A stretch of DNA of 64,000 nt from a virus, in the IMG/VR virus record IMGVR_UViG_3300010391_001464, positions 1 to 64,000 of that record, one strand, 5' to 3'. The position numbers and the translations under genes are program-made. Positions 1,046 through 44,574 of the stretch are shown piece by piece. Position 1 is the stretch's first letter. The number at the start of each line of letters is the position of its first letter. The notes beneath the pieces were generated by a model. The model searched no databases. It was not told the DNA's origin and saw only the letters and a list, made by a program, of their open reading frames with translations.

Positions 1046-4000
1046 ATGATTAAATTTTTAAATTTGAGAAATTACATAAGAACTCTTGATCCTGTTACTA
1101 CAACAGATTTTTTAACTAGAGAAGGTGCTTGGCATGATGAAGGTTTATTTTCTGAAAAAATATTCGGTGCAGATGGTACAATGGATAGAAAAAATAAACA
1201 ATCATATATAAATCTAAATGCTAAAGTTATACATCCATCAGCATTAAAAGTTTTACATCAACTAGACCAAAAAATTAAAAAATTTATATCAACTGAAGCA
1301 TCATTCTCATTAGATAAAAATGGAGTTTTAATTGAAGATCCAAAAGGTGTTACAGGTATTAAAGAATTTATTAAAATATTTCCTAAAATAAAATTTAGGG
1401 GAGAAACTAAAACTAGAGAAAAATATATTAAATTATTAGAAGAAGCATATGAAAATGAACTTTTATTTATTCAATATCTTCCAGTAATTCCTCCAGATTT
1501 TAGACCAGCATATCGTGATGAAAGAAATCAATTAGTTATTGATAAATTAAATGAAGTATATCTTACTGTCATAAGAAGAGCATTTCAAATGAAATCTTCT
1601 GGTTCTGGTCCATTATATGACCTTCTTAATTTTGGGCTGCAGTCAGCAGTAATAGATCATGATAATTATATAAGATTAAAGCTTCAAAAAAAACAAGGAT
1701 TGATTAGACAACAAATTTTAGGTAAAAGAATTGACTTTTCAGGAAGAGCTGTTATTACCCCAGATCCAATTTTAAAAATAAATGAGATAGGTATACCTTT
1801 CAGAATAGCAGTTGCTATTTTTGAACCATTTGTCATTTTTCAACTTTTACACTCTGGAAAAACTGACAAGGCTGAGTTACAAAAAGAAATTAAAGGTTAT
1901 ACTAACATAGATTTATCTATAGAAACTATACATAGTATATTTAAATCTATAAAACAAGGTGATAAAATTCCAGATGGTTTATATAATATTTTCTTTGAAG
2001 CAACTAAACTTGCAATGGAAGGAAGAGTAGTTTTAGCTAAAAGAGATCCGGTTCTACAGGCTGAATCATATAGAGGTTTTAATCCAATTTTAACCAAAGG
2101 TGATACTATTACAATTTGCAACTTACAAGTTGGTGGATTTAATGCTGACTTTGATGGAGATCAAATGGCAATATATCATCCACTATCAGATGAAGCTCAA
2201 GATGAAGTTAAACAAAAACTTATGAGAGTTGAAACTGGTATTTCATCAAATTCTATAAACTTTGGCTTATCTAAAGAAATGTGGGTAGGTTTATATATAC
2301 TTACAAAAAATGTGGGGATTAAAAATTCAGCTCTTGAAATTACTAATGATGATATGTCTTCTATAAAGGATCCATATATTACTGTAAAATATAGAGGAAA
2401 AATAACTACTGCAGGAAAGGCTATTTTTAATAGCTGTTTTCCCCAGGACTATCCTTTTATTTTTGATCAATCTACTAAAAAATTAATATCTAAAGAAATT
2501 TTAAATATTATAACTAAGTATAGTTCTGATGTAGCTAGAGAAGTTACATATAAATTAGAACAAGTAGCATTTAAATGGGCAACAATAATTGCTCCAAGTA
2601 TCTCAATTAAAAATTTAATTCTTCCTAAAGAAATTATGGATTTAAAAATTATTTTGAATAAATCTACAAGTATAGAAGAAGCAGATAAAATTATAGCTAG
2701 TGCTAAATCTAAAATTGAAATATTTTTAAAGGATACTGGATTTGGAGATATTGTAGAATCAGATGCTGCAAAGGGATGGGATCAACCTACTCAAATCCTA
2801 TTTGCAAAAGGTATTATTTCTGATCCTACTGGAGAAAAACTTTCAGTAATAAAAGGATCATTTTCTGACGGTCTATCAAATGTAGATTTTTTTGATGCAG
2901 CATCAGGAGCAAGAAAAGGTATTATGGACAGAGTTCTAAATACTGCTGATACCGGTTATATGTCAAGAAAACTTGCATATTTATTAAATACTGTAGAAGT
3001 TGATAGACAACTAATAAATTGTAATACTAAAAGAACATTAGATTTAAAAATGGACTCTGATTTAGCAAATAGATTAACAGGTAGATTTGTGATTAAAAAT
3101 GGTAAAACACAAGAGTTTGATAAATCTATGTATAAAGATGGAGATACAATAAGATTAAAAAGTCCAGTTTTTTGTGAAAGTCCAAAATTATGTCATACAT
3201 GTTATGGTAGATTAATTGAAAGACACAGAAGTCCATATGTTGGAATTATAGCTGCCCAGATTATAGGTGAACGTGGTACTCAGTTGATAATGAGGACATT
3301 TCATACAGGTGGAGCAGTAACAATTATTAAGAAAAATATAATTAATGATATTATTAGTAATGATCCTTTAGTTACAAAAGATATAGTTATTAAAAATTTA
3401 TCTCAAAAAGAAAATCAATTAATAGCAGAAAATGATTGTTCTTTACTTCTAGATTTAACAGATGATTATACTGAAAATGAAAACCTGATAATAGATGAAG
3501 AAAAAGGAACAATATGGGTAAAAAGTATAATCTCAAAAATTGAATTCAAGGATTCTTTTTTTAATCTAATTTTAGATTATCCTTGTGAAATTGAAATTAA
3601 AGAAATGAATAAAGTAAATAAAGAGTCTATAAGATTAAATTTTAAATCTAGAGAAATGATACTTATTGCATCATTAGAAGCCGCAGAATTAAAAGGTCAA
3701 ATATTATATGTTGAAAGATTGATAAGCGGTAGAGAATTAGTTAAAGATCCCTCACACTTATTTAGAAAACTTATGAGAGTTTATGCACCTACTAGTAGTA
3801 TAGATGCAGTTCATTTAGAGGTTTTAGTATCACAATGTCAAAGGTATAGAGAAGACCCTAGATTTCCAGCTCGACTTGGTAAAGTTTGGGATCCTATAAC
3901 TATTAATATGAAACAAGTAATATTTAATGAAGGATTTATACAAGGTTTAGCTTTTGAGAATATAAATAACGCTATAAGTCAGGGGTTAATAGGAGAGGAC

Positions 4001-43050: not shown

Positions 43051-43347
43051 ATGACTACTGTAACAATCGTAACATTAACTATCGAACAAGTAAAAGCTTA
43101 TTTTGAAGGAAAGGGTCTAAATGTTGAAGATCCTGGAACCACTAATCTAACTTATAACAAGATGTTAGTTATAGAAAAAGATGCTGAAGCAACATATGGC
43201 AAAGAATTTTCAAAGTTCGTACGTAGTATCTGGGACAAAACCACAAAAGAGTCAGCAACAGGAAAGCGTAAATTTTGGAATTACTTTCCAAAGTACAAGT
43301 CATGGAATGATTTGACAACTGCCTATACTGCCTCTATAAAGAAGTAA
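43051..43347 (+). CDS. Unknown 98-aa basic protein, probably abundant
   Basis: MTTVTIVTLTIEQVKAYFEG..., helical, basic and Trp/Tyr-rich in the C-terminal half (KRKFWNYFPKYKSWNDL). The codons (AAG, GGT, ATC) are less AT-biased than those of the neighbours. It is followed by a structured 3' region and a strong terminator. It could be a small DNA-binding or host-interaction protein; no family recognised. Confidence 0.7.
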   Translation: MTTVTIVTLTIEQVKAYFEGKGLNVEDPGTTNLTYNKMLVIEKDAEATYGKEFSKFVRSIWDKTTKESATGKRKFWNYFPKYKSWNDLTTAYTASIKK

Positions 43348-43349
43348 GC

Positions 43350-43490
43350 TTAGATAAAAGTGGAGTTGGTTAACCCTGCCATATAATAGGGAGTGGTAAA
43401 CACTTTTTCTAAACTACAGTTGGTGGAAACTTTAAAAGCCATATAGGATTTTTTAAATTGGTAGGGACCATGGTTGGAGGGGACTCTATA
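43350..43490 (+). ncRNA. Candidate structured RNA or 3' UTR
   Basis: The 140 noncoding bases after the 43051 gene begin with a long hairpin (TTAGATAAAAGTG, 43350-43362, with CACTTTTTCTAA, 43401-43412). This encloses a CCCT / AGGG stem, and repeated G-rich segments (GTTGGTGG, TTGGTAGGGACC, GGTTGGAGGGG) follow. The region ends at a terminator. No known RNA family could be named. Confidence 0.45.
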
Positions 43491-43519
43491 AAATCTATTC
43501 ATTAGAATAGATTTTTTTT
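43491..43519 (+). terminator. Rho-independent terminator
   Basis: Perfect 10-bp stem AAATCTATTC / GAATAGATTT with an ATTA tetraloop, running into a run of T. Confidence 0.92.
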
Positions 43520-43582
43520 AGTCAAAAAAAGTTTTAAAAAAATATCTAGTACACGTTTTTAATTTTAATTGAAACAAATTCC

Positions 43583-43704
43583 TATATATATTAATTTCTA
43601 AGGAGGAAGTTTATTATGACCAAACACTAGCTTATTCGTCCGCCGTAAAGTAATCTCTTTTATGTAGTATTATTAATTAAAAAACTAAAAAGGAGATTAC
43701 TAAA
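43583..43704 (+). promoter_or_regulatory. Leader with ribosome-binding-site-sequestering hairpin for the 43705 gene
   Basis: TATATATATTAATT at 43583-43596 repeats the element at 9080 and may be promoter-related. A very strong AAGGAGG (43600-43606) serves a short leader frame at 43616. A 13-bp hairpin then pairs AGTAATCTCTTTT (43649-43661) with AAAGGAGATTACT (43689-43701), burying the AAGGAG site of the 43705 gene. The left arm begins at the base after the stop codon of the read-through leader frame. Confidence 0.65.
43616..43648 (+). CDS. Leader peptide with in-frame amber codon
   Basis: ATG 43616, nine bases after AAGGAGG, reads MTKH then TAG (43628-43630). Decoding the TAG continues LIRPP and stops at TAA 43646-43648. 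The Pro-Pro-stop end is a known kind of ribosome-pausing context. A ribosome held there would cover the left arm of the downstream hairpin. Translation of the four-residue form is likely from the strong site. Read-through is a hypothesis, supported by the CUA-anticodon tRNA at 44503. Confidence 0.5.
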
Positions 43705-44118
43705 ATGAATACGATTCAAAACACACCAAAAGAACTATTCAAATCAAAAGAACAATATCTACAGTTCATTCAAGCATGGAAAAAAGCATATAAAGAAAAT
43801 AAACAATCTTTAACTTTAAAGCAACATATGTTGTACGCAATGTTCAGAAATAAAGATTGGAGAAAATGTTGTACTCCATGTACTAATAAAAATAAAATTA
43901 ATAATGGTCAAAAACCAAATCAAACCACATTTACTGCATTTTTTGAATTAAGAAGAAATTATAGAAGTTTATGTGTTTTTGGTGAAAATGTTACGAATGA
44001 AATGTACGATAATTTAATTTCAAAATATCTTCCTGACCCAAAAGAGTTTAATTTAGGCGATTCAATTCCAAATTCCCCATATAAGGTTATAAATGAAACT
44101 GTTTGTTCTGGTTCGTAA
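43705..44118 (+). CDS. Unknown 137-aa protein under leader control
   Basis: MNTIQNTPKELFKSKEQYLQFIQ..., a basic helical N terminus, then KDWRKCCTPCTNKNKI (three Cys in CC-x2-C) and an aromatic/basic middle. No family recognised. Its ribosome binding site is buried in a hairpin behind an amber-containing leader peptide, so its expression is probably conditional. The peptidyl-tRNA-hydrolase-like gene overlaps its 3' end by 26 bases. Confidence 0.7.
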   Translation: MNTIQNTPKELFKSKEQYLQFIQAWKKAYKENKQSLTLKQHMLYAMFRNKDWRKCCTPCTNKNKINNGQKPNQTTFTAFFELRRNYRSLCVFGENVTNEMYDNLISKYLPDPKEFNLGDSIPNSPYKVINETVCSGS

Positions 44119-44389
44119 GGACCTTAGTAAAAATCAACAAGCAGTTCAAGCTGGACATGTAGTAGCTCAATATCTATTACATGTCCAGAATCATTCATGG
44201 ACTAACGGAACATTAATCTATCTCGGAGTTGATAATAAAGAAGAGCTAGAGATATGGGGAGATAAATTAGACATGCAAGGATTAAACTGGGTTGGATTTA
44301 AAGAACCTGATTTGAATAATGAAATGACTGCATTAAGTATTGCTTCAGATGAAAATCCTTTCAAAAGATTAAAACTAATGGAATTATAA
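44093..44389 (+). CDS. Peptidyl-tRNA hydrolase 2 (PTH2)-like protein
   Basis: 98 residues. KLFVLVRKDLSKNQQAVQAGHVVAQYLL matches the N-terminal block of PTH2 (V-x-R-x-DL...K...AAQ-x-GHA), and GLNWVGFKEPDLNNEMTALSI the later strand pair (F-x-DP-x2-TA). PTH2 enzymes release peptides from tRNAs after drop-off. This fits a locus with a minigene-like leader and an unusual tRNA. It lacks an obvious ribosome binding site and is probably translated by coupling to the 43705 gene. Confidence 0.65.
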   Translation: MKLFVLVRKDLSKNQQAVQAGHVVAQYLLHVQNHSWTNGTLIYLGVDNKEELEIWGDKLDMQGLNWVGFKEPDLNNEMTALSIASDENPFKRLKLMEL

Positions 44390-44487
44390 ACATGGGATTG
44401 ATGTAATAACCAAGACAGTACGAAGAGGATAGACATATAACACACCATCATTCTCTTAACGACAATCGGGTAAATCAGTCCCATGTT
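44389..44487 (+). ncRNA. Candidate structured RNA A (14-bp closing stem)
   Basis: AACATGGGATTGAT (44389-44402) pairs with ATCAGTCCCATGTT (44474-44487) in a 14-bp stem with one wobble, enclosing about 70 bases that include an AAGAG / CTCTT helix. It lies between the PTH2-like gene, whose TAA it touches, and the amber-anticodon tRNA. The size and layout resemble the elements at 48994 and 51535. Confidence 0.5.
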
Positions 44488-44502: not shown

Positions 44503-44574
44503 ACCTCATTAGCTCAGCGGTAGAGCGATGGTCCCTAAAACCAAATGTCACGGGTTCAAATCCTGTATGAGGTA
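44503..44574 (+). tRNA. Putative suppressor tRNA, anticodon CUA (amber)
   Basis: Cloverleaf by eye: acceptor ACCTCAT / ATGAGGT (7 bp), D stem GCTC / GAGC, anticodon stem TGGT / ACCA (fifth pair A-A mismatched), 7-base loop CCCTAAA with CTA at positions 34-36, 5-base variable loop, T stem ACGGG / CCTGT with TTCAAAT loop. A37 and A38 follow the anticodon as expected for a UNN-reading tRNA. Oddities: C instead of the near-universal U at position 33, and no encoded CCA end, unlike the other three tRNAs here. A CCA-adding enzyme is encoded at 54510. Confidence 0.7.

Follow-up and report, generated by a model that had tools for sequence, protein, structure and literature searches.

The locus raises a question of purpose: why is a ribosome site followed by a reading frame of four codons, the TAG of which is succeeded in frame by five more codons ending in Pro-Pro-TAA, directly ahead of a hairpin that hides the ribosome site of the next gene? 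The sequence analyzed here, referred to as the window, comprises 64,000 nucleotides of a 90,144-base virus record (IMG/VR IMGVR_UViG_3300010391_001464) which carries phage-type rpoB/rpoC genes. An earlier note proposed that amber read-through gates the expression of the genes starting at 43705 and 44093, and that the leader senses either suppressor tRNA or release factor 1 (RF1).

Leader, hairpin, and operon in the window

The features are as follows.

43600..43606, + strand: leader SD, AAGGAGG (6/6 against AGGAGG)
43616..43630, + strand: leader ORF without suppression, ATG ACC AAA CAC TAG (MTKH-stop)
43628-43630, + strand: TAG, the putative gate codon of the window leader, with counterparts in 49 pth2 clusters
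43631..43648, + strand: read-through segment CTT ATT CGT CCG CCG TAA (LIRPP-stop), the proposed stall site
43646-43648, + strand: TAA closing LIRPP
43649..43661, + strand: hairpin left arm (folding)
43689..43701, + strand: hairpin right arm, holding the SD AGGAGA (43691-43696) of the 43705 gene (folding)
43705..44118, + strand: first gene of the putatively gated operon, 137 aa
44093..44389, + strand: pth2, peptidyl-tRNA hydrolase 2-like, 98 aa (profile, fold of a relative)
44390..44486, + strand: structured region separating pth2 from the tRNA, with a closing stem of 13 bp (folding)
44503..44574, + strand: tRNA gene with CUA anticodon, putative suppressor (Rfam 63 bits, ARAGORN)

The leader anatomy described in the earlier note (SD, ATG, four codons, TAG, five codons, and Pro-Pro-TAA at 43648) is exact to the base. 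Folding reproduced the hairpin as well: its left arm begins right after the TAA, 43649-43661 pairs with 43689-43701 over 13 bp, and the SD of the ATG at 43705 is buried. Folded alone, 43649-43740 reaches −16.0 kcal/mol (z −3.8), and none of 200 shuffles was equally stable. The predicted accessibility of this SD is 0.00 in the free RNA, 0.00 with a ribosome at the TAG, and 0.68 with a ribosome at the Pro-Pro, which agrees with the claim that the former ribosome leaves the site shut and the latter opens it. Bases ~43649-43658 would be situated under a ribosome stalled with the TAA in its A site; the partner of the SD lies +11 to +16 past CCG CCG. The arrangement is that of an attenuation leader: a short ORF that has a ribosome site of its own sits immediately ahead of the gene to be regulated and is followed by a hairpin which, by computation, sequesters the SD and places one arm beneath the stalled ribosome. 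The Arg-x-Pro-Pro core is absent, the leader ending in I-R-P-P-stop.

Further upstream, 43345-43530 is non-coding and moderately structured, with a terminator-like hairpin and T run at its end, before the presumed leader promoter. The AT-rich stretch 43582-43610 upstream of the leader recurs once, on the minus strand of the record at 71735-71765 (87% over 29 bases), and perhaps represents a shared phage promoter.

The 43705 gene has the same position as a helical "middle" family in related loci. No direct relatives of its protein were found in viral contigs, and the search was therefore shifted to pth2. Of the two targets originally named, pth2 (44093) proved to be conserved, whereas no homology was detected between the 43705 protein and the middle-gene family of the relatives. 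The start of pth2 overlaps the end of the 43705 gene, and the two are presumably translationally coupled. Against the PTH2 Pfam profile (cut-off 23 bits) the window protein scores 17.5 bits and its relative P0001 31.1 bits. The pth2 profile (A1) matches the archaeal PTH2 structure 2zv3 (E 1.8e-5), and a model of the relative L074 (the window protein itself was not modeled) reveals a PTH2 fold with a pLDDT of 92.6, the best solved matches being the PTH2 structures 2zv3, 1q7s, and 1rlk. To judge from the A1 profile and the fold of the relative, gene 44093-44389 is a Pth2-like peptidyl-tRNA hydrolase.

The CUA tRNA gene lies 0.8 kb downstream of 43705, as had been stated. Its anticodon loop reads CCCTAAA, with C33 replacing U33, and it may be a weak decoder. 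The CUA tRNA at L101 2498-2571 has this loop too, and CCCTAAA or CCCTAAC loops occur in 10 of the 88 suppressor tRNAs of the set, that of ME3 among them. Between pth2 and the tRNA, 44390-44486 (z −4.8; 0/200 shuffles as stable) may serve in processing or regulation; Rfam gave no match to it, nor to anything near the locus except the tRNA. The rpoB neighbors (L003-L014) possess neither pth2 nor the tRNA. The window Pth2 and the middle protein of L015 had no match among deposited phages, and the pth2 profile had none in bacterial genomes; more distant Pth2 queries matched deposited phages.

Stop codons ahead of and within phage pth2 genes

The comparison set consists of 103 phage pth2 loci, equivalent to 84 clusters at 80% identity; 80 loci came from a profile search, and in most of these a CUA tRNA is found directly behind pth2. 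Their sequences indicate that the hairpin leader is one of two ways of building the gate and that elsewhere pth2 itself has the gate codon. In 49 clusters (architecture A) the gene that is coupled to pth2, or fused with it, has a mini-ORF ahead of it whose usual form is M-x-stop-(V/I)-...-PP-stop. With stop codons written as slashes, the leaders of the first three informative relatives are MT/GFDKQRAPPYFY.. (L015), MTPFL/IDTFT/VQNRPP/ (L016), and MHR/IYYQTGPP/ (L017), to which the profile search added leaders such as MT/VNQQRPP/, ML/VKKPP/, and MH/VNRPP/. The gene between leader and pth2 encodes a small helical protein (family A2; invariant residues R51, I55, I68, and E69), and its end usually overlaps the pth2 start. 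A2 is fused to Pth2 in L059, L065, L073, and L074, where enzyme and partner domain thus form a single unit. L053 carries the same leader, MTY/VLINAPP/, twice in tandem upstream of the operon (~core −777 and −608), and predicted tmRNA genes are located near the gated operon in L027 (7054-7404) and L036 (3356-3751).

The specificity of the stop was assessed by searching upstream of the related pth2 genes for SD-ATG-≤10 codons-X-≤16 codons-ProPro, with X being each of the 64 codons in turn. TAG occupied this position in 29 of 44 loci and every other codon in none; these loci had been classed as leader-type partly through the same pattern, which leaves the comparison between codons unaffected. TAG was encountered once in the downstream control region and in 0/36 regions upstream of architecture-B genes.

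Of the 45 leaders, which were chosen partly for the presence of Pro-Pro, 38 contain it behind the gate stop, 29 of them as PP-stop. Like the RxPP (RAPP/RGPP) arrest peptides in the available portions of PMC10951233 and PMC12992588, 14 leaders contain such a motif (RGPP 7, RSPP 4, RAPP 2, RDPP 1), and all four motifs cause or permit arrest in the tested peptides described in the accessible text of the latter. In leader-type loci the median predicted SD accessibility is 0.17 both in the free RNA and with a ribosome on the gate stop, and rises to 0.66 once the ribosome is at the Pro-Pro; the corresponding values of control genes are 0.46, 0.48, and 0.58 (gain p 2e-10); hairpin and Pro-Pro geometry with significant predicted opening is present in ~36 loci. 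The bases pairing with the SD coincide with the Pro-Pro codons or, usually, come 6-20 bases after them, the distance from the second Pro codon being 6-26 bases in about half of the loci; as modeled, a ribosome stalled at the Pro-Pro would cover them or come close to doing so. Retention of Pro-Pro purely as an anti-SD (CCUCC pairing with the SD) was rejected as the sole cause because of the loci in which the partner lies past these codons.

In another 27 clusters (architecture B) pth2 itself begins M-x(0-3)-TAG, with starts such as MTH/VSSTEKLRVITRRDL and MK/INNHKLIIITREDL. The isolates include GAP32 (MAQ/NEKTWIYVFVR), CBB (MAQ/NEKTW), Serratia phage BF (MTH/NDKTW), Arash (ML/NKHWIYTF), ME3 (MT/IHENKKHTYVF), pT24 (MK/ITKNSN), I3 (M/VTNPQSPGKFYIAV), and Myrna, which shares V/V.. 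with ScoobyDoobyDoo; XbC2 starts MAH/NEKTW. In XacN1 and RAS14 an N-terminal extension, HD-like by eye, is joined to Pth2 and starts MK/T... In 22 of 30 near-non-redundant loci the sequence from the TAG to the first conserved strand contains no ATG, GTG, or TTG, so that an ordinary start behind the stop is unavailable there. As background, an ATG ≤5 codons before a TAG without a start behind it was found in 29 of 2275 frames of the same loci; four of these have a good SD, one being the RAS14 Pth2 fusion and two lying in pth2 operons (I3, L048). Deposited annotations begin pth2 behind the TAG or omit the gene (AP018399, NC_019401, KU574722, OQ632216, NC_041917, MW879342, and others). Shortly ahead of its gated pth2, I3 (L100, ~2595-2640) has another amber leader, M-F-TAG-V-T-R-H.., which is preceded by a good SD and overlaps the beginning of gene 165.

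The gate stop matches the suppressor anticodon in all 70 gated clusters in which a suppressor tRNA was seen (permutation p 8e-9), and such a tRNA is present in 70 and absent from 6 gated clusters versus 2 and 6 ungated ones (Fisher p 5.5e-5), both p values assuming independent clusters and being weakened by shared ancestry. With pth2 genes more than 80% identical removed, the pairs are 65 TAG/CUA, 3 TAA/UUA, and 2 TGA/UCA. The prediction for loci with other suppressors held: the loci with a UCA (opal) tRNA (L040, L045) have the TGA leader MKR(I/L)(TGA)TRNKGPDN, and those with a UUA (ochre) tRNA (L076/L077, L087, L115) have the TAA leaders MELQHW(TAA)VTCDRGP, MRPFF(TAA)ILRSRSPPV, and MHH(TAA)LPYCRGPPLAL. 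The base 3′ of the gate stop is a purine in 68/70, the window (CTT) being one of the two exceptions, and the residue behind the stop is V or I in 57/70. A 3′ purine is a context favoring amber suppression.

In six gated clusters no suppressor tRNA was present within the stretch read. The CUA tRNA is sited elsewhere in the genome, not nearby, in gated XacN1, RAS14, BF, CBB, and LR756511. Two clusters have a CUA tRNA and no clear gate, L037 (cut by the contig end) and L048. Lack of a CUA tRNA tends to go with lack of the gate; in RaK2, Aeromonas phage 65, and Hallingskeid neither was found. Atu_ph07, for which a UCA suppressor was reported, has no gate at gp680, one of its two pth genes. At 2980-3000 in RaK2 (L097), where no CUA tRNA was found, CAT-TAG-GTA is followed by the ATG used as start, possibly a relic gate.

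Gate stop, Pro-Pro, and hairpin geometry thus recur across pth2 loci, and leaders retaining the hairpin while lacking the stop, which would have told against the earlier note, were sought among the relatives and none was found. Sequence comparison establishes how the gate is built, that it is conserved in two architectures, and that its stop agrees with the anticodon.

The proposed switch and its alternatives

The locus very likely acts as a translational switch, with suppression of a stop by the phage's own tRNA as its input and the Pth2 operon as its output. In the OFF state the leader ribosome would terminate at the UAG after MTKH, its footprint short of the hairpin, and the intact hairpin would shut the 43705 ribosome site and, via the overlapping start, pth2. 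In the ON state charged tRNA-CUA would decode the UAG; the ribosome would go on through LIRPP and stall, its P/E sites occupied by Pro-Pro and its A site by UAA, covering the left arm, and the SD would be freed and the operon translated. In architecture B, with the stop directly behind the pth2 start codon, read-through would yield the enzyme itself. Hairpin opening at the Pro-Pro is predicted by folding; read-through, stalling, coupling, and the direction of the effect (suppression turning pth2 on) we infer. The central claim of the earlier note, that amber read-through gates 43705 and 44093, is in this sense strongly supported by the 70/70 match and the predicted opening, with read-through itself presumed. 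Quite probably phages of many lineages pair a suppressor tRNA with a matching stop, placed where a single operon begins, as a private signal, the tRNA serving to switch on Pth2 and not to recode the genome. The enzyme may clear peptidyl-tRNA that accumulates when the suppressor is active or termination is disturbed (feed-forward protection); alternatively, it may lower suppressor activity (negative feedback).

Several points weigh against the switch. The window peptide, at 10 residues, is shorter than known arrest peptides and ends in IRPP, not a tested RxPP; the C33 tRNA perhaps decodes weakly; the 43705 gene lacks detectable kinship to the middle family; and there are the six gated clusters with no suppressor tRNA in the stretch read, together with L037 and L048.

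It is improbable, although this alternative survives best, that the leader gauges RF1 (or RF2) in the way the prfB site does for RF2, the suppressor tRNA being incidental. A read-through leader necessarily responds to release-factor level, and a phage lowering RF1 would open it; however, some gates are TGA (RF2) or TAA (both factors), and in 70/70 clusters the stop is the one that the tRNA anticodon matches, and RF1 sensing is therefore less likely as a general function. In the leaders read, moreover, the segment downstream of the internal stop is in the zero frame and there is no prfB-type frameshift site. Of the two inputs first suggested, suppressor tRNA is the one retained.

There is a very slight chance that the M-x-stop mini-ORFs shed peptidyl-tRNA, as in lambda bar, so that Pth activity controls pth2 and the stop is simply a terminator. 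About half of the gates consist of two sense codons, and the target is a peptidyl-tRNA hydrolase, but this scheme leaves unexplained why the stop is followed by a segment that has Pro-Pro and sequesters the SD, as well as the anticodon match and the in-frame stop inside pth2. Equally doubtful is termination at the gate stop followed by re-initiation just behind it, with no read-through. GTG is found behind the TAG in I3, Myrna, and ScoobyDoobyDoo, and ATT (a rare start codon), ATA, or GTT behind the stop in many others; yet the codon in this position is mostly ATT, GTT, or GTA, and also AAT, AAC, or ACA, which are not normal starts, and neither the anticodon match nor the Pro-Pro stop of the leaders is accounted for.

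Least credible of all is that TAG is reassigned throughout the phage (code 15), leader and pth2 being ordinary ORFs: L076/L077, which read TAG as sense genome-wide, gain 39-45% coding under this code, and an internal TAG occurs in the pth2 of L016, but in the window and most loci TAG ends ordinary genes and code 15 adds little coding, the gate of L076/L077 is TAA, and gate stops are always a few codons from the start, never scattered. In these two code-15 phages TAA is still a stop, and a UUA tRNA is carried. Genome-wide recoding of the window was rejected, since TAG terminates 12 of its 65 ORFs and coding rises by a mere 0.5% (gain 0.005) when this codon is taken as sense; the window phage uses TAG as a true stop. 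Its TAG-ended genes have a backup TAA or TGA at a median distance of 2 codons, against 7-8 codons for other genes (p 0.012 in a small sample), a difference that occasional read-through of TAG would lead one to expect.

Relation to known systems

Leader attenuation, arrest motifs, suppressor tRNAs, and Pth2 are already known. The erm leaders, SecM, MifM, and ApdA/ApdP likewise possess a short upstream ORF, a stalling motif, and an SD-hiding hairpin opened by the stalled ribosome; where those leaders respond to a drug, an amino acid, or secretion, the switch proposed here would respond to the reading of an internal stop by its cognate suppressor tRNA, and its leaders can be 7-10 residues long. 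They differ from the RxPP arrest peptides in that the window has IRPP-stop and many other leaders KPP-stop, with the Pro-Pro sitting behind a stop codon; no stop-codon gates upstream of phage pth2 are reported in the available portions of PMC10951233 and PMC12992588. In prfB, too, the gene for a translation factor carries close to its start an in-frame stop that serves as a sensor, but there the response is a +1 frameshift governed by release-factor level, and here it would be zero-frame decoding by a suppressor tRNA. Phages which recode stops (code 15, code 4; theta ribozymes, PMC10879173, as far as its accessible text goes) similarly encode suppressor tRNAs that read stops, whereas most phages considered here use the standard code with a single gated operon, and in L076/L077 the gate has shifted to TAA. 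In an engineered feed-forward loop (PMC7969014, accessible part) gene expression also hangs on a co-regulated suppressor tRNA; that loop is a man-made leak dampener, whereas the pth2 gate would be natural.

No earlier description of this gate was found in a search confined to open-access papers; as far as can be told, a suppressor tRNA naturally coupled to one stop-gated operon is new. Many standard-code large phages have suppressor tRNAs lacking known targets, for which pth2 is a concrete candidate. According to the available text of PMC5852040, the XacN1 authors sought such targets and found none. The XacN1 pth2, with its N-terminal extension and MK-TAG-T start, is a candidate target testable in a cultured phage. 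If the switch is real, suppressor-tRNA level would join the inputs sensed by leader peptides, a stop codon would act as a conditional regulatory codon, mis-annotated N-termini in well-known phages would be explained, and a natural orthogonal gene switch would be on offer. It would also raise the question of why a peptidyl-tRNA hydrolase is needed exactly during stop-codon suppression.

The same enzyme family occurs in large phages according to PMC7824862, where PTH2 of jumbo phages is thought to rescue jammed ribosomes; the accessible portion of that paper contains neither a stop-codon gate nor a link to suppressor tRNAs. Annotations of several isolates miss the N-terminus of Pth2.
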